NCBI RefSeq assembly: GCF_020171365.1
Contig: NZ_JAIUZO010000002.1
Location: 496,001-560,000 of the forward strand
DNA from: Qipengyuania gaetbuli
GTDB taxonomy: Bacteria; Pseudomonadota; Alphaproteobacteria; Sphingomonadales; Sphingomonadaceae
Direction of reading: 5' to 3'
DNA length: 64,000 nucleotides
The position numbers and the translations under genes are program-made. Each line of letters opens with the position of its first letter. The first letter of the stretch is position 1. This document shows, piece after piece, positions 12,850-52,881 of the stretch. The notes under the pieces were generated by a model. The model was not told the origin of the DNA. It did not search any database and saw only the letters and a program-made list of their open reading frames with translations.

Positions 12850-14439
12850 ATGCAGCAATTGCAGGGCATGGATGCCAGTTTCGTTGCGCTGGAAACGCGC
12901 AATTCGCCGATGCACATCGGCTCGATCCTGATTTACGATCCCAGCACCGCGCCCGGCGGTTTCGTGCGCTTTAAGGATATCCTCGGCTTCATCGAAAGCC
13001 GCCTGCAATTGTCCAAGACGATGCGCCAGCGCCTCGTGCGTGTGCCTTTCGACCTCGATTATCCCTACTGGATCGAGGATCCGGACTTCGATCTCGAATA
13101 TCACGTGCGCCACATCGCCCTGCCCAAGCCGGGCGACTGGCGGCAGCTGTGCATCCAGGCGGCGCGCGTCTTCTCCCGCCCGCTCGACCTCAGCCGTCCG
13201 CCGTGGGAATTCACCGTTGTCGAGGGGCTCGACGGGATCGAGGGGCTGGCCAAGGGCAGCTATGCCTACATCACCAAGGTCCACCATGCCGCCATCGACG
13301 GGATGAGCGGGATCGACCTGATGGAAGCAACGCACACGCTGCGTCCCGACGAGCCTCCGCCGTCCACGCCCGACACATGGAAGCCCGAAAAGCTGCCCAA
13401 CCCGGTCGAACTGCTCGGCCGCAGCTACATGAATGCGATCACCAACCCGCTGAAGCAGATCGAGGTCGCCGCCAAGGCCGCGCCCGGCCTCGCCAAGGCG
13501 CTGAAAGGACTGGCAGCCAAGGAATTCGACGTCTCGTCCGAGATGATCGCGCCCAAGACCCGCTTCAATCGCAAGATCTCGCCCCACCGCGTGGTCGAGG
13601 GCATCAGCGTCCCGCTGGCCGAAGTGAAGGAGATCCGCACGCTGGTCGATGGCGCGAAGGTCAACGACGTGTTCCTCGCCATCATCGGCGGCGCGATGCG
13701 GCGCTACCTCGAAGACAAGAAGGAACTGCCCAAGAAGACGCTTACGGCCATGGCGCCGATCTCCGTCCGATCCAAGGGCGAGAAGGACACCATGGGCAAC
13801 CAGGTGGCCGCGATGATCGCGCCGCTTGGCACGCATATCGCCGACCCGGTCGAACGGCTGCAGTTCTGCCATGACCGCACGGTCAATTCCAAGGCCATGA
13901 CCGACGCCATGGGCGCGCGCAACATGACCGAGATGAGCAAGGCAAGCCCCGCGCTGTTCATGGCACTCGGCGCGCAGCTCTACAGCCGCCTCAGCCTTGC
14001 CAATCGCGGTGTCGGGCCGATCTTCTCGACCGTGGTGACCAATGTCCCCGGACCGCCGATCCCGATCTATTCGGCCGGCGCGAAGATGCAGAGCATGATG
14101 GGGCTTCTGTGCCTGACCGACGGCCTTGGCCTCGGCCATGTCGTCCAGTCCTATACCGACGAGGCGACGATCGCCTTTACCGCGGACCGGGAAATGATGC
14201 CCGATCCCGAATTCTACGTCGAATGCATCCGCGCATCCTACGAGGAACTGCGCGATGCAGCGAAGAACCCCGCCCCGAAAAAGGCGGAAGCGAAGAAGCC
14301 TGCCGCCAAGAAGCGGGCTCCGGCCAAGAAGGCCACTGCAAGGAAGAAAGCGCCCGCTTCGAAAGCGAAGACGGGCACAAAGGGGGTCGCCAGCCGTAAG
14401 AAGGCTGCCCCTAAGGGGAAAGGAACAACCAAATCGTGA
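12850..14439 (+). CDS. Wax ester synthase/diacylglycerol acyltransferase with Lys/Ala-rich tail
   Basis: WS/DGAT enzymes esterify diacylglycerol or fatty alcohol with acyl-CoA, giving storage triacylglycerol or wax. The active-site HHAAIDG is at residues 145-151, and the family motifs PLDLSRPPWEFTVVEG and NVPGPPIPIYSAGAK are visible. The main domain ends near residue 465. The last roughly 58 residues (14260-14436) are a Lys/Ala/Pro-rich, histone H1-like stretch, absent from classic enzymes such as AtfA, and probably disordered and nucleic acid- or granule-binding. The end overlaps the next gene by 4 bp (GTGA), pairing synthesis with a hydrolase. About 157 bp of leader (12693-12849) precedes it. 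Confidence 0.9.
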   Translation: MQQLQGMDASFVALETRNSPMHIGSILIYDPSTAPGGFVRFKDILGFIESRLQLSKTMRQRLVRVPFDLDYPYWIEDPDFDLEYHVRHIALPKPGDWRQLCIQAARVFSRPLDLSRPPWEFTVVEGLDGIEGLAKGSYAYITKVHHAAIDGMSGIDLMEATHTLRPDEPPPSTPDTWKPEKLPNPVELLGRSYMNAITNPLKQIEVAAKAAPGLAKALKGLAAKEFDVSSEMIAPKTRFNRKISPHRVVEGISVPLAEVKEIRTLVDGAKVNDVFLAIIGGAMRRYLEDKKELPKKTLTAMAPISVRSKGEKDTMGNQVAAMIAPLGTHIADPVERLQFCHDRTVNSKAMTDAMGARNMTEMSKASPALFMALGAQLYSRLSLANRGVGPIFSTVVTNVPGPPIPIYSAGAKMQSMMGLLCLTDGLGLGHVVQSYTDEATIAFTADREMMPDPEFYVECIRASYEELRDAAKNPAPKKAEAKKPAAKKRAPAKKATARKKAPASKAKTGTKGVASRKKAAPKGKGTTKS

Positions 14440-15243: not shown

Positions 15244-18003
15244 TCAGAAGGCCTTGCGGATATCCACGCCGAGATAGCGGCCGACAGGGTCGATCCTCAG
15301 CGGGTCGTAGGCGCGCGGCGTATCGCCGTTCTCGTCGGTCACGGTGCGGCGCGCGTCGAACAGGTTGTCGGCAAGCACCGACAGGCGCAGCCCCTTCATC
15401 CAGCCGTCCTCTTTCTTGAAAACTTCGCCTAGGTCGGCGAACAGGCGGATGTCGAAGGTGACGAGGTCCGAGAAGAACAGGTCGCTCGACCCGGGCAGAT
15501 CACCGCCCAGCAGTTCCGCCTCGCCGATGTAGCGGCCCGAGAGACGCAGGCCGTAACCCTGCCAGAACAGGCCGCCCTCGAGACGCGAGGAGTGCTGCGA
15601 AATCGCGCTGCCGCCGAGGACATCGCCCGCCAGCTGGTCGAACAACGGGCCGTTCTCTGCCAGCAGGACCTCGTTCTCGAGCACGATATTGTGGTTGAGG
15701 CTGAGGAAATAGCGCGGGCGCGTATCCGACGGATCGCCGCCGAAGCGGCCGAAGCCGCCACCGCCGCCGCGGCGCGGGCCGCCCTGCTGCGATTGGCCTT
15801 CGCCCTGCGCTGCCTGTGCGGAACACATCCTCTCGCGCATCGCCTTGACCTTTTCCGGGTCGATCTCGCCATTCTCGTCCTTCAGGCGGGCGAGGACCTG
15901 TTCAGGCAAGCCATCGAGCTTGGGCGGTTCGGCGCAGATCGCCTCGCGCATGGCGGTAAACTGCTGGCTGCGCTGGTCGGCCTCCGCTCCGCAGAAGCGC
16001 GCGCGGGCCGCCGCGATCTTTTCCGGGTCCGGATTGCCGTTGGCGTCGAGCAGGCGCGAACGGAACATTTCCGGGATGGCCGACAGGTCGGGCGTTTCGC
16101 CTTCGGGCGCCTTGCAGAAGGTCTCGCGCATCGCTTCCATGCGAGCGGGATCGAAGCCCATGCCCGGCCCGCCACCCGGACCACCCGGACGACCTTGCGG
16201 CGGACCGCCATTGCCCTGGGCACCGCGGTCGGGACGTTCGGGCGCCTTGCCGATCTCGCCGCGCGTATTGAGCCCGAAGGACAGCACCCGGCTGCGGGTC
16301 TCGTAAAGCGTCAGCGGGCGGCGGTCGATGGCAAGCAGTTCGCCTGCGGTGCCGCGCGTCACGCGGTCGGGGAAGGCTTCCTCGAAGGCCGCGCTGAAGC
16401 CCGGTGACGCCGTCACGTCGCGCGAGCGGTTGATGCCGTAATCGGCCTGCAGGCGGGCGTTCTCCCAGAAGGGAAGCTCCCAGTTGGCGCTGAACTTCCA
16501 GTCGGCCTGCGTTTCGGCGCGAAGGTCCGGGTTGCCGCCCGTCACCAATGTCGCCAGCACCGTGTCGCCAGTGGCGTAATCGAAGACCGGCACGTTGAAC
16601 TCGTCAATCCGGGGGCTGCCGAGCGAGGTCAGGCTGGGCGCCACTTCGCGCCAGATGCGCGTGGCACTGAAACCCAGCGTATCGGTCGGCTGCCAGTTGA
16701 TGCCCGCGCTCCAGTTTGCCAGCGTGCCGAAATCCGAGAGGTCTTCGATGCCGGAGCTAAGGCTCAGGCTGACGCCGCCGATGGCACCCCAGGCGCCGCC
16801 ACGCTCCGCGATCGGGACGGACAGCGTGGTGTTCGCATCGAACCGGCGACGGGTCAGTTCGATATCGGTCGCCGACCGCGTGTCTTCGCTGGCGATCTGG
16901 CGCCAGTCCACGCCGGTCTTGAAGGTGACGCTGATATCGCCTGCCGGCAGCGCGATCGGATAACCGGTCAGCGTAAGGTCGTTGGCGATGGTCCAGGTAC
17001 GACTTTCCGCGACATCGAAGCCGCTGCCGTCGAAACGGTCGATCTCCGTCGTGGAGAGCGAGCGCACCGTGTCGTTGGTGAAAACCGCGTTCCAGTCGCC
17101 GATGGGGCGCGACAGCGTGCCGCCGACCGAGATGGTGTCGACGTCGCCGCGACGCTCCAGCGGGATGGTCCCGTCATTCGACAGGCCCGACAGGCTGAGG
17201 CTTTCGGAATGGTTGTAGGTGCCGTTGAGGCTCAGCGACAGGCCGCTCTCGAGGAAGGCCCGGGCATAGTTGACCGTACCCTGGGCGCTCATCGTGTCGG
17301 GGCGCAGGCTGCGGAACTGTTCCTCGCCCGGGACGCCGCCCTCGACAGTCAGGCCGCGCTCGGCCTCGGTCAGGAGGCTCGAATCCTCGAAATCGAGGTT
17401 GAAGTTGAGGCGACCTTTCTCGCCGATGCGCAGATAGGTCAGCTCCTGCTCGTTGCGGGTGAAGCCGCCGCGGTCGGGACCTTCGTATTCGACTTCCGCG
17501 CTCACGCTCTGGAAGTTGGGCTTGAGGATGATGTTCACCACCCGCTGGTCGGCAGAATAGCCGAAGCGTTGCGCCGTTTCCTCGGGGAAGACCTCGACCT
17601 TCTGCACCGCTTCGGGCGGATAGCTGCGGAATTCGCGGAAGCTGGAAACGCGGATGCCGTTGATGAGGAACACCGGCTGGCCCCCGCCGCGACTGCTGCG
17701 GGCACCGCTGCTGGTGGCCGGCTCAATCGCAGCGATCACGTCAGCGATGGAGCTGGCGCCGAAGGCGGCGATGTCCTGCTCGCTGAATTCCGCGATCGGT
17801 TTTTCCTCGACGAACAGCTGGCCGCGGATTCGCGTGCCTTCCACGACGATGGTGTCCGAAGCGGAAGGCGGCACGGCCATCTCTTCCATGTCGGGCTGCG
17901 GCTGGGCCCGCGGGTCCTGTTCTTCCGCCATGGCGGGAACGCCGCTCAGCGAAAGGGCAAGCGCAAGAGCCGGCAGCGAAGTACGTGCGCGAAGTGTTTT
18001 CAA
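15244..18003 (-). CDS. TonB-dependent receptor with internal Cys-containing EF-hand-like repeats
   Basis: The start is a TTG at 18003 giving a signal peptide that ends GVPAMA; upstream in-frame sequence runs into infA and is non-coding. The mature protein has a plug domain (SDTIVVEGTRIRG, PVFLINGIR, PEAVQKVEVFPEETAQRFGY) and a beta-barrel ending in VDIRKAF with a terminal Phe. Length is 919 residues. At residues of about 590-740 a Gly/Pro/Arg/Gln-rich linker flanks two similar units of about 45 residues, each with two Cys and a D-x-N-G-x-x-D-P-E-K core. This insert is not part of normal barrels and probably sits in an extracellular or periplasmic loop. The substrate is unknown. Confidence 0.88.
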   Translation of the reverse strand: MKTLRARTSLPALALALSLSGVPAMAEEQDPRAQPQPDMEEMAVPPSASDTIVVEGTRIRGQLFVEEKPIAEFSEQDIAAFGASSIADVIAAIEPATSSGARSSRGGGQPVFLINGIRVSSFREFRSYPPEAVQKVEVFPEETAQRFGYSADQRVVNIILKPNFQSVSAEVEYEGPDRGGFTRNEQELTYLRIGEKGRLNFNLDFEDSSLLTEAERGLTVEGGVPGEEQFRSLRPDTMSAQGTVNYARAFLESGLSLSLNGTYNHSESLSLSGLSNDGTIPLERRGDVDTISVGGTLSRPIGDWNAVFTNDTVRSLSTTEIDRFDGSGFDVAESRTWTIANDLTLTGYPIALPAGDISVTFKTGVDWRQIASEDTRSATDIELTRRRFDANTTLSVPIAERGGAWGAIGGVSLSLSSGIEDLSDFGTLANWSAGINWQPTDTLGFSATRIWREVAPSLTSLGSPRIDEFNVPVFDYATGDTVLATLVTGGNPDLRAETQADWKFSANWELPFWENARLQADYGINRSRDVTASPGFSAAFEEAFPDRVTRGTAGELLAIDRRPLTLYETRSRVLSFGLNTRGEIGKAPERPDRGAQGNGGPPQGRPGGPGGGPGMGFDPARMEAMRETFCKAPEGETPDLSAIPEMFRSRLLDANGNPDPEKIAAARARFCGAEADQRSQQFTAMREAICAEPPKLDGLPEQVLARLKDENGEIDPEKVKAMRERMCSAQAAQGEGQSQQGGPRRGGGGGFGRFGGDPSDTRPRYFLSLNHNIVLENEVLLAENGPLFDQLAGDVLGGSAISQHSSRLEGGLFWQGYGLRLSGRYIGEAELLGGDLPGSSDLFFSDLVTFDIRLFADLGEVFKKEDGWMKGLRLSVLADNLFDARRTVTDENGDTPRAYDPLRIDPVGRYLGVDIRKAF
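15790..16200 (-). repeat. Two tandem Cys/EF-hand-like protein repeats plus GP-rich linker inside the TonB receptor
   Basis: Repeat 1 runs from about 16140 to 15980 and repeat 2 from about 15951 to 15811. They align as MRE-x-x-C, then a helix, then DANGNPDPEK or DENGEIDPEK, then a helix ending in F/M-C. The linkers between them and after them are Gln- and Gly-rich. Confidence 0.75.
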
Positions 18004-25112: not shown

Positions 25113-27347
25113 CTAGTGTTCGAAGCGCACCGACAGGCCGATCACGCGCGGATCGTTCACGAAGCCGGTGTTGTTGTTGAAGTCGATACCACCCTTCACA
25201 TTGTCCGCATCGGTGATGTTGCGGGCGAAGAGTGCAACTTCCAGCGTTCCGTCACGCTTGGCGTAACCGATGCGCAGACCGCCTTCGATCTGGTTGTCGG
25301 CAACGTATTCGGCGCTGTCGTAGAGGAAGAAGCTGGTTTCGCCCTGGTAGGTCCAGTCGGTGTAGGCGAAGATTTCGCCGACGCTGCCGACCGGCACGGC
25401 GTAACGTGCGGTGATGTCGGCAATCCATTCCGGTGCGTTGGGGAACGGGTTGCCGTCCACCAGCGCGCGGTCGGTGCCGCCGATGTTCACGATCGGGTCG
25501 AGCACGGTGCACTGGGCGCAGATGCCGACGGCCAGGTTCTCGTCACGGATTTCGGTGTTGTTGTAGCTGGCACCGGCCGTGACGAGGAAGTTCGGCGTGA
25601 TCTGGAACGCGCTGTCGAGCTCGAAGCCCCAGCCGCGACCGTCCGCCGCATTGACGAGCTGCACGAGGTTGCCGGCACCGCCGACGGCGGAGAACTGCGG
25701 GTCCTCGATGTTGTAGAAGTAGGCGGCACCGTTCAGGCGGACGCGGCGGTCGGCCAGTTCGGACTTGAAGCCGACTTCATAGCTCATGATCTTCTCGCTC
25801 GTCGCGATCGACGGCGGCGCGAAGAAGGCCACGTCGCGACCCTGGATGGTCGGAGCGCGGAAACCGCTGGCGACGCGGGCGAAGACGCTGGCATCGGTGC
25901 TCACGTCGACGAATGCGGCGAGATCCCAGCTGATGCGGTCATCCTGGACCGAACGCGGCTGCGGTGCGGCACCGTCGAGGACGACGAAGTCCTTCTGGTC
26001 GTCGGTGTAGCGAAGACCACCGGTCAGCTTGATCGTGTCGGTCACCTGCGAGGAAACCTGGCCGAACACGGCCCAGCTCTCGTTGGTGTGGTTGACGGTC
26101 ACGGACGGCGGGAAATCGAAGCCGACCGTGGTCACGTCGAAGTCGCTGTCGAAGTAGAAACCGCCGACCTGCCATTCCAGCGCGCCGCCGCCGTTGCTGG
26201 CAAGGCGGACTTCCTGGGTGAACTGGTCGAGTTCGATCGAATCGCGCGTATCCGACGGGAACGGGATGAAGCCCGGGCCCATGACCGGCAGGAAGCTGGC
26301 ACCGAAGCCGCCGTCGATGTCGCCGCGGCTCGAACCTTCGCTCGACGCGAAGCTGGTGATCGAGGTGAAGGTGGCGAAATCGGCTTCGTAGTCGACCTTG
26401 CCGGTGATGATCTCGGCCTTGTATTCGGCCTGGTTGCCGCCGCCGGCGTCGAAGAACACGGTGTCGCGGTCGTAATTATCGTTCAGCTCGTTGTTGCCCG
26501 GGCCGAGGATGTTGGCGCGGAACAGCGTCGACGTGCCGTCGAGATCGCGGATCGAGTAGCTGCCGAGGATCGACAGGCGGTCGGTCGGGGTGATCAGCAG
26601 CTGGGCGCGCGCGGCGATGTCGGCATAGGCGCCGTAGGCGTCCTCTTCACCGGTGAAGCCGTTGTCCACCCAGTCGTCGCGCTGCTGCCACATGCCCGAC
26701 AGGCGCAGCGAGGCGAGGCCCGGTGCAATCGGAATGGTCAGGCCGCCGTCGATCGAAACCGAACCGAAGCTGCCGACGCTGGCCGAACCGTTGACGGTGA
26801 ATTCATCGCCCGGCTTGACGGTGTCGATCTTGACGATGCCGGCCGGGGTGTTGCGACCGAATAGCGTGCCCTGCGGGCCGCGCAGGACTTCCACGCGCTC
26901 GACGTCGAAGATCGGGAAGCTCTTGAGCGTGACGTTTTCGAGGACGACGTCGTCCATGACGACCGAAACCGGCTGCGAGGCAGCAAGGTCGAAGTCGGTG
27001 TTGCCGAGGCCGCGGATGTAGAAGCGCGGGGCTGCACGGCCGTTCGAGCTTTCGACGAACAGGCCCGGGACGCGGCCGGCCAGCGCGGTCACGTCGGCGC
27101 CGGCATCGAAGATGGTGCGGGTCGCGTCGGCCGACAGGATGGCAGCCGAAACGGCGACGTCCTGCAGGTTTTCCTCGCGGCGGTTGGCGGTCACGACGAT
27201 CATGTCGAGCTGGCCGTTGTCGGCTTCTTCGGCACCGGTCACTTCGGTGTCGGAGCTGTCGACGTCCTGGGCCATCGCGGGCTGCGCAAGTGCGAGAGCC
27301 AGCGTGCTGGCAGAAAGGAGGCGGAGAGTAAGGGAGCGGTCAATCAT
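25113..27347 (-). CDS. TonB-dependent outer-membrane receptor
   Basis: The 744-residue protein has a signal peptide ending QPAMA and a TonB-box-like IVVTANRREENLQDV. The plug domain contains FYIRGLGNTDFD and VERVEVLRGPQGTLFGRNTPAG. A 22-strand-type barrel ends VIGLSVRFEH, with the Phe near the C-terminus. The start ATG at 27347 has an AAGGA ribosome site 8 nt upstream; the open frame beyond is a shadow. The plug signature is the FecA/FpvA-like CirA class common in sphingomonads for siderophores, vitamin B12 or plant and algal compounds. No adjacent regulator or importer hints at the substrate. Confidence 0.93.
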   Translation of the reverse strand: MIDRSLTLRLLSASTLALALAQPAMAQDVDSSDTEVTGAEEADNGQLDMIVVTANRREENLQDVAVSAAILSADATRTIFDAGADVTALAGRVPGLFVESSNGRAAPRFYIRGLGNTDFDLAASQPVSVVMDDVVLENVTLKSFPIFDVERVEVLRGPQGTLFGRNTPAGIVKIDTVKPGDEFTVNGSASVGSFGSVSIDGGLTIPIAPGLASLRLSGMWQQRDDWVDNGFTGEEDAYGAYADIAARAQLLITPTDRLSILGSYSIRDLDGTSTLFRANILGPGNNELNDNYDRDTVFFDAGGGNQAEYKAEIITGKVDYEADFATFTSITSFASSEGSSRGDIDGGFGASFLPVMGPGFIPFPSDTRDSIELDQFTQEVRLASNGGGALEWQVGGFYFDSDFDVTTVGFDFPPSVTVNHTNESWAVFGQVSSQVTDTIKLTGGLRYTDDQKDFVVLDGAAPQPRSVQDDRISWDLAAFVDVSTDASVFARVASGFRAPTIQGRDVAFFAPPSIATSEKIMSYEVGFKSELADRRVRLNGAAYFYNIEDPQFSAVGGAGNLVQLVNAADGRGWGFELDSAFQITPNFLVTAGASYNNTEIRDENLAVGICAQCTVLDPIVNIGGTDRALVDGNPFPNAPEWIADITARYAVPVGSVGEIFAYTDWTYQGETSFFLYDSAEYVADNQIEGGLRIGYAKRDGTLEVALFARNITDADNVKGGIDFNNNTGFVNDPRVIGLSVRFEH

Positions 27348-45471: not shown

Positions 45472-46167
45472 CTACTCTCCGACGAGAATCCAGTCGGCGG
45501 CGGTGCGGCAGTGAATGTCGGTGGAATCGAAGACCGGCAGCACGTTCGCGTCGGTATCGACCACCAGCTCAAGCTCGGTACAGGCGAGAACGATGGCCTT
45601 CGCGCCTTCCTTGTCCTTGTTGGTGATGACGGTCTTGAGTGCACGTTCGGCAGAGCGCGTGACGCGGCCGAGCATCAGCTCCTTGTAGATGATGCCGTCC
45701 ACCAGCTCGACATCGCCGGGATCGGGCGGAAGCAGGTCGACACCGTAGGATACCAGCCGCTGGCGGTAGAAGCCCTCGGTCATGATGAAGCGCGTGCCGA
45801 GCAGCGCCGCATTGTCGCAGCCTGCCGCGCGCATCGCCTCGCCCACGCTGTCGGCGATGTGCAGGATGGGGATCGAGATGCCTTCCGCCACCCGGTCATA
45901 GACCTTGTGCATGGTGTTGGCGGCGATCACGAGGCCTTCGGCACCGGCGCTTTCCAGCCGGCGTGCGCTATCGACCAGCAGCGCTGCGATCCGGTCCCAG
46001 TCGTCCGCCTGCTTCGCCTCGGCAATGAGCGAATAGTCGAGGCTTTCGATCAGCATCGGCGCACTGGACATGGGATGCCCCTTGCGCTGGATTTCGCGGT
46101 TGATGCGTTCGTAATAGGCGCGGGTAGAGATCCAGCTCATCCCCCCGATTAGACCCAGCTTGCGCAA
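45472..46167 (-). CDS. Aspartate/glutamate racemase-family protein
   Basis: 231 residues starting at a TTG (46167) with GGGAG five bases upstream. Begins RKLGLIGGMSWISTR, the usual Asp/Glu racemase opening. The first cysteine site reads AANTMHK, where two-cysteine racemases have C-N-T; the second site ACTELELVV has its Cys. Racemase activity is thus uncertain; one-cysteine relatives are known. It is the last gene of the operon 51401-45472. Confidence 0.83.
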   Translation of the reverse strand: MRKLGLIGGMSWISTRAYYERINREIQRKGHPMSSAPMLIESLDYSLIAEAKQADDWDRIAALLVDSARRLESAGAEGLVIAANTMHKVYDRVAEGISIPILHIADSVGEAMRAAGCDNAALLGTRFIMTEGFYRQRLVSYGVDLLPPDPGDVELVDGIIYKELMLGRVTRSAERALKTVITNKDKEGAKAIVLACTELELVVDTDANVLPVFDSTDIHCRTAADWILVGE

Positions 46168-46216
46168 GTGCGCTCCCTTCCTGTTACCCTGTCGCGCCCT
46201 TGCGGGCAGTCCCTCT

Positions 46217-47218
46217 TCAGGAATTGGGAACGGACTGCGCCCTCGGCGGTTCCGACGCGGTTTCGCTTGCCGCAAGGGCGATGTCCGAAAGCCACACCAC
46301 GAGGTCCGCCGCGCTGCGCTCCGCCGCCTCTTCCATCGGGATGTGCCCAATGCCGTCATAGGCTACCAAGGTGGAGTTCGGCAGGGCATCGTCATACCAG
46401 CCCGCCGCCGCGAAGGGGATGAGTGCATCTTCCTTGCCCCACATCACCAGTGTCGGCACTTCGACCTTGGCCACGTCAGCCTTGTCGAAAACCGTCCATC
46501 CAAGGCCGAAGCGTTTCATCGTCGCATCGCGATTGCCCGGATAGCGCGCCAGTTCCCAGTAGCGGTCGACGGCCTCGGGGCTGACGACTTGCTGGTTGGA
46601 CACGCTTTGCGACAGGCTGCGCTCGACGATCGAGCGGGGCATGAGCTGGAAAGCGAGGCTGTTGACCAGGGGAATGCGCGCCAGCTTGAAAGCCAGATTG
46701 CCGCTGCCCTCGCGCTGGATGTCCGCGCCGCCCGCATCGACCAGCACCAGTCCGTCGAGCCGTTCGGGATGGGTTATGGCGTATCCCATGGCGATGCCGC
46801 CGCCCATGGAATTTCCGGCCAGCACGAAGCGGTCGAGACCCAGCGCATCGGCGACATTCCCGACGTCGGTGACGAAGGCGTCATGCGAATAATCGTCATC
46901 GGGCGCAGGTCCCGTCAGGCCGTGGCCGCGCTGGTCGAAGCGGATAACGCGGTAATCCTCGCGCAGCATCTCAGCCCAGGGCTGCCAGGTGTAGAGGTCG
47001 GCGTTCGACCCGTGCAGCAGCATGATCACCGGCGCATCGCGCGGCCCCTCGTCCCGCAGGTGGACCGTGCGTCCGTCGGCGAGTTCGACAGCCTGAGAAG
47101 GCGAGGCACCGTACTTGGCCCACATCTCCTCCGCATCAGTATCCGGCACCCTGAAGGCGAGGAAAGCGAGACCGCCTGCCAGAAGTAGCAGGCCGATCGC
47201 GCGCACGATCCATTTCAT
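46217..47218 (-). CDS. Membrane-anchored alpha/beta hydrolase
   Basis: 333 residues with an N-terminal hydrophobic anchor (about residues 4-22), so probably periplasmic-facing. The domain has MLLHGSNADLYTW (oxyanion), GNSMGGGIAMG (nucleophile Ser), a D in the GKEDALIPF loop and GIGHIPMEEA for the catalytic His. An epoxide-hydrolase or haloalkane-type fold; substrate unknown. Its start overlaps the diheme cytochrome stop (ATGA), so the two are coupled. Confidence 0.85.
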   Translation of the reverse strand: MKWIVRAIGLLLLAGGLAFLAFRVPDTDAEEMWAKYGASPSQAVELADGRTVHLRDEGPRDAPVIMLLHGSNADLYTWQPWAEMLREDYRVIRFDQRGHGLTGPAPDDDYSHDAFVTDVGNVADALGLDRFVLAGNSMGGGIAMGYAITHPERLDGLVLVDAGGADIQREGSGNLAFKLARIPLVNSLAFQLMPRSIVERSLSQSVSNQQVVSPEAVDRYWELARYPGNRDATMKRFGLGWTVFDKADVAKVEVPTLVMWGKEDALIPFAAAGWYDDALPNSTLVAYDGIGHIPMEEAAERSAADLVVWLSDIALAASETASEPPRAQSVPNS

Positions 47219-48228
47219 TTCGGCATCTCCTCGATCCAGCGGCGCACCGCTTCGGTTCCTTCGCGATCGATACTCGACTTGCCGACCTCGGGCATGGCGA
47301 CGCCGGGATCATTGCTCAGCATCCGGTGAAGCAGGATCGACTGATCGGGATCGCCCGGCACGACATCGAACAGCAAGCCACCAGCCCCGCGTCCGGCTGC
47401 GACCGGGCGCTTCATCACGCCGAGCGCGTGCGGATCGTCCTGTTCCCACCGCAAGTCGAGCCCGCTGTTCGAGGCTGTGGCCCCGGGCCGGTGGCAATGG
47501 GCGCAGTTCACGTCGAGATAGGCGCGGGCCACTGCCGCGACACCGGAAGCGCTTCGCTTTTCCCAGACCACCAGCCGGTCGGCACCAGCCGGAACTTCGT
47601 CCAGATTGGCCGCCAGCCATTCGCCGGACAGATTGCGCGCCTTGGGCCCGATCGGGATCACCGCATCGTCCAGCCCGTGGCATTCCTTGCACTGGTTCTT
47701 GTTCGGGACGCGGTAGCTGATCGCCTCGCCTGCCGGTGTGACGACCGACATGCGCGCTCCCGCAATCGCCAGCGCAGCATCGGTCTGCTCCGCGTTCCAG
47801 ACATAGGGCAGAGCCACCCAGCCGCTTTCACGGTGGAGCAAGACGCGTGTTTCGATTAGCCGCCGCTCGCTCCCCTCGCCGAAAGCGAAGGTCTTGATCA
47901 GCGCAGTGCCGACCGGAAAATCGATCAGGCCATCGCCATTGGCTTCCATCCGCTTGCCTTCGGGCACGTAGACGAAGCGCAGCTTTTCCGCGCCGTCGGA
48001 ATAGAGCGGGGTATTCAGGCGATAGGGCGTGACGCGTGCCGCCGGGGCCTGTCCTGCCCCGTCCGTGAAGAAGCCGAACTGCGACAACAGGCGCGGCATA
48101 CCCTGCACCACCGCATCGTCATTGACTGCTTCGACCGCCGCGACCGGCTGCAAGAAATCGGCGCGTGCCGCAACCGATCCGGCCAGCGCGAGGCTCGCTG
48201 CGGCAAGCAGGGCGGTGGCAGGCCTCAT
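47215..48228 (-). CDS. SO2930/HNE_0200-family diheme c-type cytochrome
   Basis: 337 residues with a signal peptide ending VAARA. Two heme-c motifs, CKECH at about residue 178 and CAHCH at about residue 242, confirm a diheme protein exported through Sec and matured by Ccm. The family (TIGR03806-like) occurs as a regular two-gene pair with a beta-helix protein. The C-terminal SILLHRMLSNDPGVAMPEVG resembles the end of other c-type cytochromes with a DUF1587-like part. Its start overlaps the beta-helix gene by 4 bp. Electron donor and acceptor unknown. Confidence 0.88.
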   Translation of the reverse strand: MRPATALLAAASLALAGSVAARADFLQPVAAVEAVNDDAVVQGMPRLLSQFGFFTDGAGQAPAARVTPYRLNTPLYSDGAEKLRFVYVPEGKRMEANGDGLIDFPVGTALIKTFAFGEGSERRLIETRVLLHRESGWVALPYVWNAEQTDAALAIAGARMSVVTPAGEAISYRVPNKNQCKECHGLDDAVIPIGPKARNLSGEWLAANLDEVPAGADRLVVWEKRSASGVAAVARAYLDVNCAHCHRPGATASNSGLDLRWEQDDPHALGVMKRPVAAGRGAGGLLFDVVPGDPDQSILLHRMLSNDPGVAMPEVGKSSIDREGTEAVRRWIEEMPK

Positions 48229-49415
48229 CCTCCGAGCCGTGCCTCCAGCGCTGCAGGTGCACCGATACCGCTGCGATCGAACGCGGACGCAGGCGCCGTC
48301 ACGACGAGAGGTCCGGGCTGCGCTGCGCCGAGGCCCTTTCCGGCCTCGGCCAGGTTGAGGCTCCACCCCGCGGTCCCTTCGACCGCGGCAAGCGAACCAA
48401 GCCCGTCCCACAGGACCGGCGGCAGTTCGCCGCCAAAGGCCGCCAGCAGCATCTCCGCGCCGTCGAGCTGCGGGTCATAGCCGCCGCCGTCGTAGCTGTT
48501 CGTGCCCACCACCACCTCGCGCGGAAGCGGGTTGTAACGTGCATCTTCATAGGGCTGGACATAGGCGATAACCATGACCGGCGCCGTCGGGTTGCCGGAC
48601 AGGATGTTGTTCTCGATCAGCACCTTTTCGTTGGCCATGACCATGATGCCGGTACCGCGCCGTACGCCGGCCACGATATTGCCGGGAGGCGCGAAATTGG
48701 GCGTGTCGTTGGCGACCACCAAATTGTTTTCGATTATGACGTTGCCACCGCCCATGACCGGCAGGCTGGGCAGATCGAACACGAGGATACCGCCCGTATT
48801 GCGCGTGGCGACATTGTGCGCGACCAGCGCATTGCGGCTGTTCTCGATCTCGATCCCGGCGACATTCGCCTCCGCGATCGAATTGCGCACGGTGATCCGG
48901 TCGGACTGGCCGACATAGATGCCCGCATCGCTCGCCCCGGTCACCTTGACCCCGTCGACGAGGATGCCGGTGCTTTCGACCGGATAGATGCCGTAGGCGC
49001 CATTTTCCGGATGCGGACCCCGCGTCCAGGTCACGCGAATGCGGTGGTAGACGATATTGTCGGCGCCCTTGGACTTCACCCCGTCGCCCTTGGGGTTTTC
49101 GAGCGCGAAATCGCGCAATGTGACGTTGTCGCTGGTGACGAGCAGCCCTTCGCCCGCGCCCTGCTGGCCGGTGAAGTCGAGCACGGTCCCGTCCATGCCT
49201 GCGCCGCGCACGGTCACATCTTCGACATCGAGGCTGAGACCGTCGCTCATCGCATAGCGGCCCGCTTCGAGCACGATCTCGTCCCCCGGCTGCGCCATGA
49301 TGAGCGCCTCCTGCAAGCGCTCCTGCGCGCCGTCACCGGGGGTCACGACATGGGTTTCGGCCAGCGCAGGCGCGGCAGTCGCAAGCAGGGCCGCAGCAAT
49401 CGTCATTCTGAACAT
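48225..49415 (-). CDS. Exported parallel beta-helix protein (TIGR03805-like)
   Basis: 396 residues with signal peptide ending PALAE. Repeated short V/I-x-N-x-x-x-A/G rungs (for example NVTLRDFALENPKGDGV, DRITVRNSIAEANVAGIEI, NVIIENNLVVAND) form a right-handed beta-helix. In the published TIGRFAM description such proteins occur in two-gene pairs with the diheme family and the role of the pair is unknown; this is family knowledge from memory. A GGGAGA ribosome site precedes the ATG at 49415. Confidence 0.87.
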   Translation of the reverse strand: MFRMTIAAALLATAAPALAETHVVTPGDGAQERLQEALIMAQPGDEIVLEAGRYAMSDGLSLDVEDVTVRGAGMDGTVLDFTGQQGAGEGLLVTSDNVTLRDFALENPKGDGVKSKGADNIVYHRIRVTWTRGPHPENGAYGIYPVESTGILVDGVKVTGASDAGIYVGQSDRITVRNSIAEANVAGIEIENSRNALVAHNVATRNTGGILVFDLPSLPVMGGGNVIIENNLVVANDTPNFAPPGNIVAGVRRGTGIMVMANEKVLIENNILSGNPTAPVMVIAYVQPYEDARYNPLPREVVVGTNSYDGGGYDPQLDGAEMLLAAFGGELPPVLWDGLGSLAAVEGTAGWSLNLAEAGKGLGAAQPGPLVVTAPASAFDRSGIGAPAALEARLGG

Positions 49416-49473
49416 GAGTCTCTCCCTTGCAACCCATTGTGCCGCAAGGTCAGACGATTGCAAGCGATGGACT

Positions 49474-51000
49474 TCAGCGGGAGGCGGCTTGTGCCCGGGC
49501 CAGCCCTTCCATCGACAGCCTGCGCCCCGGCGCGAAGGCCAGCGCTTCGCGATAGGCTTCTGCCGCTTCCTTGTGCTGGCCTGCTGCAGCCAGACGCTCG
49601 GCAAGGATTTCCCAGCCCGGCTTGCCTACCGGCGGCGGGCCATAGACTACAGGGGTCGCGCTTTCCTGCTCGGCTGCGGCACGCAGCAGGGCAAGACCTT
49701 CATCGGTACGACCCTCGGCCAGCACCAATAGCGCTTCGCCCTGCGCGACCTGGCGCATCATCCACGGCCTGACCCACGTGTCGTAGGGCGATTCTTCCTT
49801 GAGCGCGGCATCGATTTCGGCCGCCAGAGCTTTCATTCGGCCGAGCGCGGCTGCCACTTCCTGACGGTCGCCCCCGGCCCGCATCAGGCGCGCGTAGGCC
49901 TGGTCGAAGCGCGTCAGGAGGAAACCTTCGTCCACGCCTTCGAGCGGAGGTGCCCATGTGCCGGTCGCAATGCCGTTCCACATGGCCATGCCGGAATAGC
50001 TGGAGGCCGGACCGAAACCGAGGCGGCCCTTGGGTCCACCCGCGATCTGCGCTTCTGCCTGAACCCGGCATTCGGCGATCAGCTGCCCCGCATCCTTGCC
50101 CTGCTGGAGCAGCGCATAGGCCAGCCATTCGTTGTAGTGGCCGCAGGAACTGGGCTCGCGGCCCTGCGAGGCCCGCTGGCGGTCAACCACCGCATCTGCG
50201 TTCACGTTGGCACGCTCCACCGCCTGCCAGTCGGCCAGCGCATGGAAGATATGGCTCACCATGTGCTGCGCATGGCCCGCATCGGGCGCGACGACCGCGT
50301 AACGCTCCGCCATCCGCTTGCCGAGCGGGGCGTGGACCGGATCGTCATAGGAATGGATCAGGTAGTGGAGGATGCCGGGGTGCATCTCGTGCGTCATGAA
50401 GCCCTGCTCCAGCACACCTGCCGCCTCCATGTAGATAGGCAGCTGCCTGCCGCCATGCGAGCTGGCGAGCACCGCCAGTCCCGTGAAGGCGCGCATGTCG
50501 ATATCGTCGGGGCGCGCGGCGAGCATGGTGCGCATCTTTGCCAGGTAGGCGAGGTCGCGCTCTTCCTTGGTGCCTTCGCCGTAAAGGGTCTCGACCGCGT
50601 CGAGCCATTGGCGCTCGGTCGCATTCCGAGCCTTGGCAGCGCGCTCCGCCTGGGTGGCGCCCAGCTTTGCCAGTGCGGCAAGCGCAGCGTCCCGGTCCTG
50701 ATCGTCCCAAAGGGAATGGTTGTGGGTCATCGCTTCGCCCCAGTAGGCCATGACGAAGCCCGGATCGGCGGCCTGCGCGCGCTGGAATTCCTCCGCCGCG
50801 TAGCCGTATTCGAAGTTATGGAGGAGAGCGAGGCCGCGCAGGAACGGCTCCTTCGCCGCCTCGTTCGCGCTCGTCTCCATGACCATGAATTCGGTCCCGA
50901 CCTGCGCCAGCGTCGCGTTCTCTTCGGCGCCGTGACCGGTATGCGCATTGGCCGTCGCCGCCATCAGCAGCGCGGCTGTCGTGAGTGCCAGTTTCTTCAT
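49474..51000 (-). CDS. Exported His-rich TPR protein
   Basis: 508 residues with a signal peptide (MKKLALTTAALLMAATANA). TPR units flank a core with clustered His: THNHSLW, HPGILHYLIHSYDDPVHAP and DAGHAQHMVSHIFHALADW. These His-rich helices recur in a widespread uncharacterised family and look like metal or heme-contact sites (inference). C-terminal TPRs end at EAYREALAFAPGRR. The gene is 58 bp upstream of the beta-helix gene and in the same orientation as the cytochrome, suggesting joint export. Confidence 0.82.
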   Translation of the reverse strand: MKKLALTTAALLMAATANAHTGHGAEENATLAQVGTEFMVMETSANEAAKEPFLRGLALLHNFEYGYAAEEFQRAQAADPGFVMAYWGEAMTHNHSLWDDQDRDAALAALAKLGATQAERAAKARNATERQWLDAVETLYGEGTKEERDLAYLAKMRTMLAARPDDIDMRAFTGLAVLASSHGGRQLPIYMEAAGVLEQGFMTHEMHPGILHYLIHSYDDPVHAPLGKRMAERYAVVAPDAGHAQHMVSHIFHALADWQAVERANVNADAVVDRQRASQGREPSSCGHYNEWLAYALLQQGKDAGQLIAECRVQAEAQIAGGPKGRLGFGPASSYSGMAMWNGIATGTWAPPLEGVDEGFLLTRFDQAYARLMRAGGDRQEVAAALGRMKALAAEIDAALKEESPYDTWVRPWMMRQVAQGEALLVLAEGRTDEGLALLRAAAEQESATPVVYGPPPVGKPGWEILAERLAAAGQHKEAAEAYREALAFAPGRRLSMEGLARAQAASR

Positions 51001-51059
51001 GAGTCCCTCCCCCTCGGCACCGATCATGCCGCGAGCGAGCGGGTTTGGGAAGCCGTGCG

Positions 51060-51401
51060 CTATCCGGCCGTGAAGGAGCAGATCGCTGCCGAGGTGCCGA
51101 CCACCTCGATCGCCTCGCGGTCGTCCACGCGGCGCAGGCGTTCGAGAAATTCGGCCATGGTCAGCGGCACTTCGCTTTCCCCCTCGCGCGCCTGCAGGTT
51201 TTCGAGCTTGCGCAGCTGCATGAGCGACAGGCGCTCAGCCATGCGCCCGCCCATGCAGGCAGCGACAGGCTGCGGGATGCCCTTGTCGACCAGCACGGCC
51301 TCGATCCGGCCTGCGGTCACGCGCTCGACGCCGCCGAACCAGCCCCACAGGCCGAGACCGACGAGCGACAGCACAGCGATTGCGATAACGGTCTTGCGCA
51401 T
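51060..51401 (-). CDS. Hypothetical protein with N-terminal membrane segment
   Basis: 113 residues with one N-terminal helix (VIAIAVLSLVGLGLWGWF), then a short soluble part containing two Cys in ACMGGRM and AICSFTAG. The soluble part could be exported. No family recognised. It is 59 bp before the TPR gene and 4 bp after pntB in the same direction, so it may be transcribed from the pnt promoter. Confidence 0.6.
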   Translation of the reverse strand: MRKTVIAIAVLSLVGLGLWGWFGGVERVTAGRIEAVLVDKGIPQPVAACMGGRMAERLSLMQLRKLENLQAREGESEVPLTMAEFLERLRRVDDREAIEVVGTSAAICSFTAG

Positions 51402-51405
51402 GGAG

Positions 51406-52881
51406 TCAGTCGAGCGCCTTCACGATTTCCTCGACCATCTTCTTCGCATCGGCCAGCAGCATCATGGTCTGGTCCATGTAGAAAACGTCATTGTCGACGC
51501 CGGCATAGCCCACGCCGCCCATCGAACGCTTGATGAAGAAAACCTGCTTGGCCTTGTCCACGTCGAACACGGGCATGCCGTAGATCGGCGACGACTTGTC
51601 GGTCTTGGCAGCCGGGTTCACCACGTCGTTCGCGCCGATGATGAAGGCGACGTCGGCTTGGGCGAATTCGGAGTTGATGTCCTCCAGCTCGAAGACCTTG
51701 TCGTAGGACACGTTGGCTTCTGCCAGCAGCACGTTCATATGGCCCGGCATGCGTCCGGCTACGGGGTGGATGGCAAACTTCACCTCCACGCCCTTTTCCT
51801 CGAGGATGTCGGTCATCTCGCGCAGCGCGTGCTGCGCCTGCGCCACCGCCATGCCGTAGCCCGGGATGATGATGACCTTTTCCGCCTGTTCGAGCATGAA
51901 GGCCGCGTCTTCCGCGCTGCCCTGCTTGTAGGGGCGCTGCTCTTTGGCCTCGCCCCCGCCCGAGCTGCTGTCGGCGCCGAAGCCGCCGGCGATCACCGAG
52001 AGGAAGCTGCGGTTCATCGCGCGGCACATGATGTAGCTGAGGATCGCGCCCGAGGAGCCAACCAGCGCGCCGGTGATGATCATCGCCGTATTGCCGAGCG
52101 TGAAGCCCATCGCCGCCGCCGCCCAGCCCGAATAGCTGTTCAGCATGGATACCACGACTGGCATGTCCGCCCCGCCGATGGGAATGATCAGCAGGAATCC
52201 GATCGCGAAAGCGGCGATGGTGAGCGCAACGATCAACGGCATCGTGCCTGCGCCGACCGTGTGCGCGAACATGGCGACAAGCACGAGGATTGCGGCCAGC
52301 GTGCCGAGGTTGATGATGTGCCGCCCGGGCAGCAGGATCGGCGAGCCGCTCATCCGGCCGGAAAGCTTGGCAAAGGCGATGACCGAACCGGAGAAGGTGA
52401 TCGCACCGATCGCTATACCGAGGCCCATCTCGACCTTGCTGACAGGGTCGATCCCCCCATTGGGCAGGAGCAAGCCGAAGGCACCCGGATTGAGGTAGGC
52501 TGCCCAGCCAACCAGCACAGCGGCAAGGCCGACCAGTGAGTGGAAGGCCGCGACCAGTTCTGGCATCGCGGTCATAGCGATACGGCGAGCGATCGTGACG
52601 CCGATGATGCCGCCAAGGAAGATGGCCAAGCCGATTTCCACGATGTTGACGACCGAATGCGTGACCAGCGTGGTCACCACGGCAATCAGCATCCCGATCA
52701 TGCCGAAGCGGTTGCCCGTCCGGCTCGTCGCGGGCGAGGACAGGCCGCGCAGCGCGAGGATGAAGAACACGCCCGACACGAGATAGGCGAGCGCGACCCA
52801 CGGGTTCACCGGCTCTCCGCTCGACGCAGCGGCAGGCGAGGCCGTCAGCAGGAACGGTACAGCGAGGAGAAGGCGACGCAT
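51406..52881 (-). CDS. pntB: NAD(P) transhydrogenase subunit beta
   Basis: Proton-translocating transhydrogenase beta subunit that binds NADP(H) and makes NADPH. 491 residues with about eight to nine membrane helices and a C-terminal NADP-binding domain (VIIIPGYGMAVAQAQHALRE, then the HPVAGRMPGHMNVLLAEA loop). N-terminal 20 residues resemble a signal sequence before the first conserved helix. The start overlaps the end of pntAB by one base (TGATG). Confidence 0.94.
   Translation of the reverse strand: MRRLLLAVPFLLTASPAAASSGEPVNPWVALAYLVSGVFFILALRGLSSPATSRTGNRFGMIGMLIAVVTTLVTHSVVNIVEIGLAIFLGGIIGVTIARRIAMTAMPELVAAFHSLVGLAAVLVGWAAYLNPGAFGLLLPNGGIDPVSKVEMGLGIAIGAITFSGSVIAFAKLSGRMSGSPILLPGRHIINLGTLAAILVLVAMFAHTVGAGTMPLIVALTIAAFAIGFLLIIPIGGADMPVVVSMLNSYSGWAAAAMGFTLGNTAMIITGALVGSSGAILSYIMCRAMNRSFLSVIAGGFGADSSSGGGEAKEQRPYKQGSAEDAAFMLEQAEKVIIIPGYGMAVAQAQHALREMTDILEEKGVEVKFAIHPVAGRMPGHMNVLLAEANVSYDKVFELEDINSEFAQADVAFIIGANDVVNPAAKTDKSSPIYGMPVFDVDKAKQVFFIKRSMGGVGYAGVDNDVFYMDQTMMLLADAKKMVEEIVKALD

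Follow-up and report, generated by a model that had tools for sequence, protein, structure and literature searches.

The locus at positions 45472..51401 of a 64,000-nucleotide stretch of Qipengyuania gaetbuli DNA (contig NZ_JAIUZO010000002.1, positions 496,001 to 560,000; the whole stretch is called the window here) raises the question of which of its closely packed genes form a functional unit, and of what such a unit might do. A first-pass annotation, made from the sequence alone, had described an undescribed exported redox module of four proteins: a His-rich TPR protein, a beta-helix protein, a diheme cytochrome and a hydrolase. We compared the locus with related loci in other genomes. Its core is a known pair of protein families, TIGR03805 (beta-helix) and TIGR03806 (diheme cytochrome), and the window carries an ordinary member of that pair. 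The two proteins may by themselves be the functional unit, with the other two genes as neighbours of restricted distribution.

A recurrent beta-helix and diheme cytochrome pair

Sequence and open reading frames (ORFs) place the genes for the TPR, beta-helix, diheme cytochrome and alpha/beta hydrolase proteins on the minus strand, in that order. The beta-helix/cytochrome and cytochrome/hydrolase junctions are each an ATGA, with a 4-bp overlap, and 58 bp lie between the TPR gene and the beta-helix gene. By eye, the N-termini of the TPR, beta-helix and cytochrome proteins resemble signal peptides, and the hydrolase has a hydrophobic anchor at its N-terminus. The first-pass annotation had described strand, overlaps, gap, signal peptides and anchor correctly, but had overlooked two further genes in the interval, encoding a 113-amino-acid (aa) protein and a racemase (see below).

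The beta-helix protein (396 aa; 48225..49415, minus strand, as are all features of the locus) scores 418.6 bits against TIGR03805, for which the curated cut-off is 141.5. The cytochrome (337 aa; 47215..48228) scores 356.6 bits against TIGR03806, the SO2930 family, with a curated cut-off of 313.3; it has two CxxCH heme motifs, CKECH (residues 180-184; 47677..47691) and CAHCH (residues 242-246; 47491..47505), and is the single match to its family in this genome. Side by side and above both cut-offs, the window proteins show no difference from the pair as defined in NCBIfam. Neither literature searches nor NCBIfam names yielded a function for this pair. What stands of the "undescribed" module is thus a recurrent pair whose function is unproven; the pair itself was already known.

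Among 398 Pseudomonadota genomes, TIGR03805 is found above its cut-off in 45, and 42 have a TIGR03806 score of at least 149 bits, 37 of them above the cut-off; four genomes with weak TIGR03806 matches only (about 19-21 bits) stand outside the count of 42. Both families occur at one locus in 39 genomes, as neighbours in 33 and as a single open frame in six (G368, G256, G330, G283, G233 and G118). Both families were confirmed by hmmscan in the fusions L057 and L094. Such natural fusions show that the beta-helix and the diheme cytochrome belong together, and with the count of 39 genomes they bear out the earlier statement that an exported pair of redox type recurs.

The coupling of TIGR03805 to heme extends beyond TIGR03806. 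All 45 genomes with TIGR03805 above cut-off are heme-coupled, 39 through an SO2930-type cytochrome and six through a link to MbnH/MauG-like enzymes. These six (G357, G034, G359, G166, G274 and G386; loci L266-L271) lack TIGR03806 and form a second class, five of them in one family (f45). Their beta-helix proteins all carry a C-terminal CxxCH, with a Pfam cytochrome domain in one of the four scanned, and in all six loci the next gene upstream is of the MbnH/MauG-like diheme type by tblastn, in five of them also by NCBIfam (below its cut-off). The tblastn query was one of the MbnH-like genes of this class, and the gene of L266, which the gene caller had missed, was recovered in this way. Five of the six loci also encode a small protein with two CxxCH motifs and a TonB receptor. 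A similar set is present on the Ruegeria pomeroyi megaplasmid (L118), where the C-terminal cytochrome match of the beta-helix protein scores 25.9 against a Pfam cut-off of 27 and a TPR gene lies between the beta-helix gene and the MbnH/MauG-like gene. The literature on MbnH and MbnP that we found contains no beta-helix protein.

Conversely, the diheme domain occurs without TIGR03805 above cut-off in three genomes (G286, G226 and G406), always in very long proteins. The three of these giant proteins that were scanned (L095, L096 and L098, from G286 and G226) all contain by Pfam the propeller of the GSDH (glucose/sorbosone, PQQ-type) dehydrogenases; the fourth, L097 from G406, was read by eye only. 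These relatives thus fuse to a propeller the same diheme domain that in the window is accompanied by a beta-helix in its place. The giant proteins have further domains, F5/8 type C and ThuA in L096 and starch-binding modules with PSCyt/PSD domains in L098.

Diheme-domain matches in two genome samples led to 60 loci, of which 17 lie in the genus, 39 are pair loci from elsewhere and four are of the diheme/GSDH type (L095-L098); the last four are kept apart from the 39. Residue conservation was read from the window and the non-genus loci, leaving out sequences of at least 1100 aa. This gave 42 cytochrome rows, hence without GSDH fusions, and 40 rows for the first class of beta-helix proteins. C180, C183 and H184, as well as C242, H244, C245 and H246, are present in all 42 aligned cytochromes. 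M312 (codon 47293..47295) is the sole Met invariant in 42/42 and is for that reason a candidate distal heme ligand. In the beta-helix protein a stripe of residues, Y141, P145, D163, Y167, E189, E191 and N192 (codons within 48840..48995, residues 141-192), is invariant in 21/21 sequences that include the MbnH-linked class. W130 is conserved in 40/40 of the first class and is missing from the conserved list of the 21.

Several known beta-helix proteins were considered as relatives. The window protein exceeds the gathering score of the broad Pfam beta-helix model PF05048 (NosD; 42.2 bits against 23.6), and PF13229 matches it more strongly, at 99.6 bits. It shares this fold and this match with NosD of the NosDFY copper system; unlike NosD, it falls far below the cut-off of the NosD equivalog TIGR04247 (47.5 bits against 300) and its family has no invariant metal-type ligands, and unlike NosDFY, no ABC transporter genes are found among the identified immediate neighbours of the window pair. 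Mannuronan C5-epimerases and alginate lyases (AlgE, AlgG) use catalytic Tyr, Asp, His and Asp residues, with a YGFDPH-type motif. Against that motif, the window sequence YGIYPVE keeps the Tyr and Pro and changes the Asp and His positions.

For the cytochrome, no match to PF03150 (MauG/bacterial cytochrome c peroxidase) was found at E values up to 0.01, which sets it apart from the MbnH/MauG-like enzymes, and no sequence relative in the PDB at E values up to 0.1. A structure model of the beta-helix and cytochrome as a fusion was good for each domain with a disordered linker, and with a pTM of 0.55 no interface was inferred from it. The results of a fold search with this model were filled by the beta-helix and barely covered the cytochrome half, so that the missing fold there is uninformative.

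Receptors and regulators beside the pair

In the 39 non-genus loci, TonB receptors make up 9 of the 78 genes that directly adjoin the pair, compared with 4 of the 459 genes at greater distance (Fisher p=8e-6). This count was seeded with two receptor-like genes that lie elsewhere in the window, which leaves it unbiased by seeding; an earlier count seeded with the adjacent receptors gave 9/78 against 2/452. The nine receptor loci belong to six families and should not be taken as nine separate events. Seven of the 39 loci have an AraC-type gene next to the pair (L057-L059 and L069-L072; checked with Pfam on L057, L069 and L072). In the second class, where 13 kb were fetched, Pfam places a receptor in 5/6 loci and an AraC-type regulator in 4/6. 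In the window's own group the receptor is not seen beside the pair in the named loci (see below), though one Novosphingobium plasmid and L080 do have it. On the Novosphingobium plasmid, receptor genes flank the pair on both sides, and alcohol and aldehyde dehydrogenase genes are found in the region.

Proposed function and alternatives

The reading that we favour, with about an even chance of being correct, is that the two proteins of the pair make up the functional unit, with the beta-helix protein binding a ligand and the diheme cytochrome as its redox partner. The beta-helix protein would be periplasmic, with some relatives apparently lipid-anchored, and would serve as a ligand-binding head carrying the invariant Tyr/Asp/Tyr/Glu/Glu/Asn stripe. 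The cytochrome would be dedicated to it and would carry electrons from the bound ligand to the pool of periplasmic c-type cytochromes, or the reverse. For some relatives, most of them not sphingomonads, the product of the adjacent TonB receptor gene would probably bring in the ligand, and an AraC-type regulator may sometimes control these receptor-linked relatives. The fusions of this diheme domain to sugar-dehydrogenase propellers make oxidation of the ligand somewhat more likely than its reduction.

Several observations weigh against this proposal. The count of 45/45 does not extend to 24 further genomes whose TIGR03805 matches are all sub-threshold. One sub-threshold match, in G162 (L272, 86 bits), lacks a CxxCH and has one neighbour with a single CxxCH. 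No cytochrome is annotated within 9 kb of a beta-helix gene on a Hymenobacter plasmid, and loci of one family are not independent cases of adjacency. No TonB receptor was found among 155 genes adjacent to the pair in 80 named, mostly sphingomonad loci. The beta-helix by itself has no evident redox cofactor, which would leave the chemistry to the heme protein or to the ligand. Finally, relatives in Shewanella are classed among the outer-membrane cytochromes, and one paper places SO2931 under Fe/Mn oxide reduction.

This last point is the basis of an alternative that we consider unlikely, in which the pair would be a surface or periplasmic terminal reductase donating electrons to an external acceptor, such as a metal oxide or chelate or a quinone-like compound. 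SO_2930 and SO_2931, which by NCBIfam name belong to the same diheme family as the window cytochrome, are tabulated together as outer-membrane/extracellular cytochromes (PMC4837345). Several papers refer to SO_2931 as an outer-membrane cytochrome or lipoprotein (PMC5357785, PMC12175506, PMC5829830, PMC10986466), and a transcriptome paper lists it as a cytochrome c lipoprotein and also under Fe/Mn oxide reduction (PMC5955497). The available parts of this literature gave no experiment or phenotype for SO_2930 or SO_2931 alone. The Shewanella-type loci L057-L059, which we infer to correspond to SO_2930/SO_2931, each encode beta-helix and diheme domain in a single protein with a lipobox-like N-terminus; two of these loci have a second diheme gene besides, and the fusion L057 is above the cut-offs of both TIGR03805 and TIGR03806. 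The window differs from this type in having separate genes and, by eye, no lipobox Cys near the end of the signal peptides, and the other fusion partner of the diheme domain is a sugar dehydrogenase.

Less probable again is a role in metal handling, with the beta-helix as a NosD-like copper or iron carrier, the diheme protein as a metal reductase and the receptor as one for metallophores. For copper this is weakened by the low equivalog score and the lack of invariant metal-type ligands described above.

A further alternative, which we regard as improbable, is that the beta-helix protein is the substrate of the diheme enzyme, which would oxidise an invariant Tyr (or Trp) to yield a protein-derived cofactor or binding site. 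MauG and MbnH act in this way, oxidising residues of a partner protein to give a protein-derived cofactor or binding site. Consistent with this are the MbnH/MauG-like gene directly upstream in all six genomes that have TIGR03805 without TIGR03806, the invariance of Y141 and Y167, and the single invariant Met for two hemes, which may leave one heme open. However, the distal ligands may be non-conserved, or may be H244 or a Lys or Tyr, which are also conserved; the MbnH-like proteins score 216-226 against an NCBIfam cut-off of 362.85, CCP_MauG does not match the window cytochrome, and W130 is conserved in the first class only. A broader form of this idea, with equally slim prospects, would make TIGR03805 a new class of heme-serviced scaffold, in which a diheme enzyme, SO2930-type or, in the second class, MbnH/MauG-type, oxidises invariant aromatic residues of the cleft to a protein-derived redox cofactor or chelating site; the completed protein would then act on a ligand, which in many relatives would again arrive through an adjacent TonB receptor.

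The TPR-type protein and the hydrolase

The TPR-type protein (508 aa; 49474..51000) and the hydrolase (46217..47218) appear to be lineage-specific neighbours of the pair. To weigh them we also used the 80 named loci, the best 80 of at least 582 beta-helix relatives and therefore biased to close kin; the closest among these 80 are from Qipengyuania and Erythrobacter. Counts in this set are of presence on the strand of the pair within the fetched locus. A cytochrome match is found in 77/80 (the others being L210, L254 and L256, of which the matches in L210 and L256 end at a contig end).

Within the genus, 3 of 17 loci have the TPR gene next to the pair (4/18 counting the window). None of the 39 loci outside the genus has it there, the nearest case being a distant relative about 6 kb off in L074, and among the named loci it is present in 2/80. 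The window genome has a single match to this protein. Of 25 genus genomes, three have an ortholog (above 700 bits), always at the pair locus, and G290 of the phylum sample has one as well. The 32 loci fetched for further members of this TPR family all lack the pair, and those listed show no common theme. Some relatives have metal-resistance genes or a multicopper oxidase nearby. The TPR gene beside the Ruegeria beta-helix gene, a TPR_19 gene, was rejected as support, since it is 19 percent identical to the window TPR protein and aligns poorly.

The labels given to this protein earlier are true in part. Three Pfam TPR models match it, all in the C-terminal part only and all under the gathering score (TPR_2 at 20.7 against 27), and its family profile, from which Ruegeria, Acinetobacter and Rhodococcus rows were dropped, aligns to solved TPR proteins almost only through that part; a single-sequence structure model reached a pLDDT of 46. 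"His-rich" describes 17 of 508 residues. Seven of these, H207, H212, H216, H243, H246, H250 and H288, are indeed conserved, being invariant in 7/7 sequences of one alignment and present in at least 90 percent of 10 in another. They form two HxxxH motifs (212/216 and 246/250) with His 207, 243 and 288, an arrangement reminiscent of a metal site. The conservation holds in the wider TPR family, members away from the pair included, and is therefore uninformative about the window module.

The hydrolase matches PlaF, the membrane phospholipase A of Pseudomonas aeruginosa (PDB 6I8W), over nearly its full length including the N-terminal anchor region (6i8w_A, E=2.1e-24, residues 8-312), and its GNSMG fits the GxSxG motif. 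It is a putative PlaF-like phospholipase, and its link to the pair is lineage-specific. It lies beside the pair in 15/17 genus loci and in 1/39 outside (L088, of the same family). Among the named loci it is present in 24/80, each time within 400 nt of the cytochrome gene, and those 24 are titled as Erythrobacteraceae genera or Sphingomonadaceae metagenome-assembled genomes.

The first-pass annotation had taken the TPR protein for a third exported partner and the hydrolase for an enzyme that may act on a substrate oxidised by the complex, and had named neighbourhoods across genera as the test. With counts outside the genus of 0/39 and 1/39, the TPR protein is rejected as a third partner and probably stands outside the functional unit, and the hydrolase is rejected as a general partner, being restricted to Erythrobacteraceae and near kin. 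A four-protein exported module, suggested by the tight gene packing and by the TPR orthologs that sit at the pair locus, is very improbable given these counts and those from the named loci.

Other neighbouring genes

The gene string begins upstream with pntB (NAD(P) transhydrogenase beta subunit; 51406..52809, start approximate; PF02233, 641 bits), followed after 4 bp by the gene for the 113-aa protein (51060..51401), which has a hydrophobic N-terminus and no Pfam match above gathering score. It ends with a gene for an Asp/Glu racemase family protein with a TTG start (45472..46167; TIGR00035, 166.7 bits, cut-off 93.1). In the named loci, pntB is found in 46/80 and the racemase in 45/80, making them commoner neighbours than the TPR protein or the hydrolase; a protein like the 113-aa one is found in 30/80, and the downstream gene, which we take to be dgt-like, in 34/80. 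In 13 of the 45 racemase loci (L217, L223, L225, L227, L230, L232, L237, L238, L242, L245 and L255-L257) the racemase gene lies on the other, upstream side of the pair. Many sphingomonads thus carry pntB and the racemase gene along with the pair, with the racemase gene upstream in some and downstream in others, which suggests repeated linkage.

Elsewhere in the window, 12910-14439 encodes an acyltransferase of the wax ester/triacylglycerol synthase family (TIGR02946, 417 bits). Two genes that resemble TonB-dependent receptors lie away from the pair, one at 15244-17931, recognized by eye and without an NCBIfam match, and one at 25113-27275, with a sub-threshold match to siderophore receptors.

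Implications

The pair is present in about one in ten of the sampled Pseudomonadota genomes (39/398). What is new here is the comparison, which shows heme coupling in every sampled genome with TIGR03805 above cut-off, exchangeable partners, and a TonB receptor that recurs mostly outside the window's group. Heme coupling and receptor adjacency turn a pair of unknown role into a testable ligand-binding redox system, from which two misleading partners have been removed.

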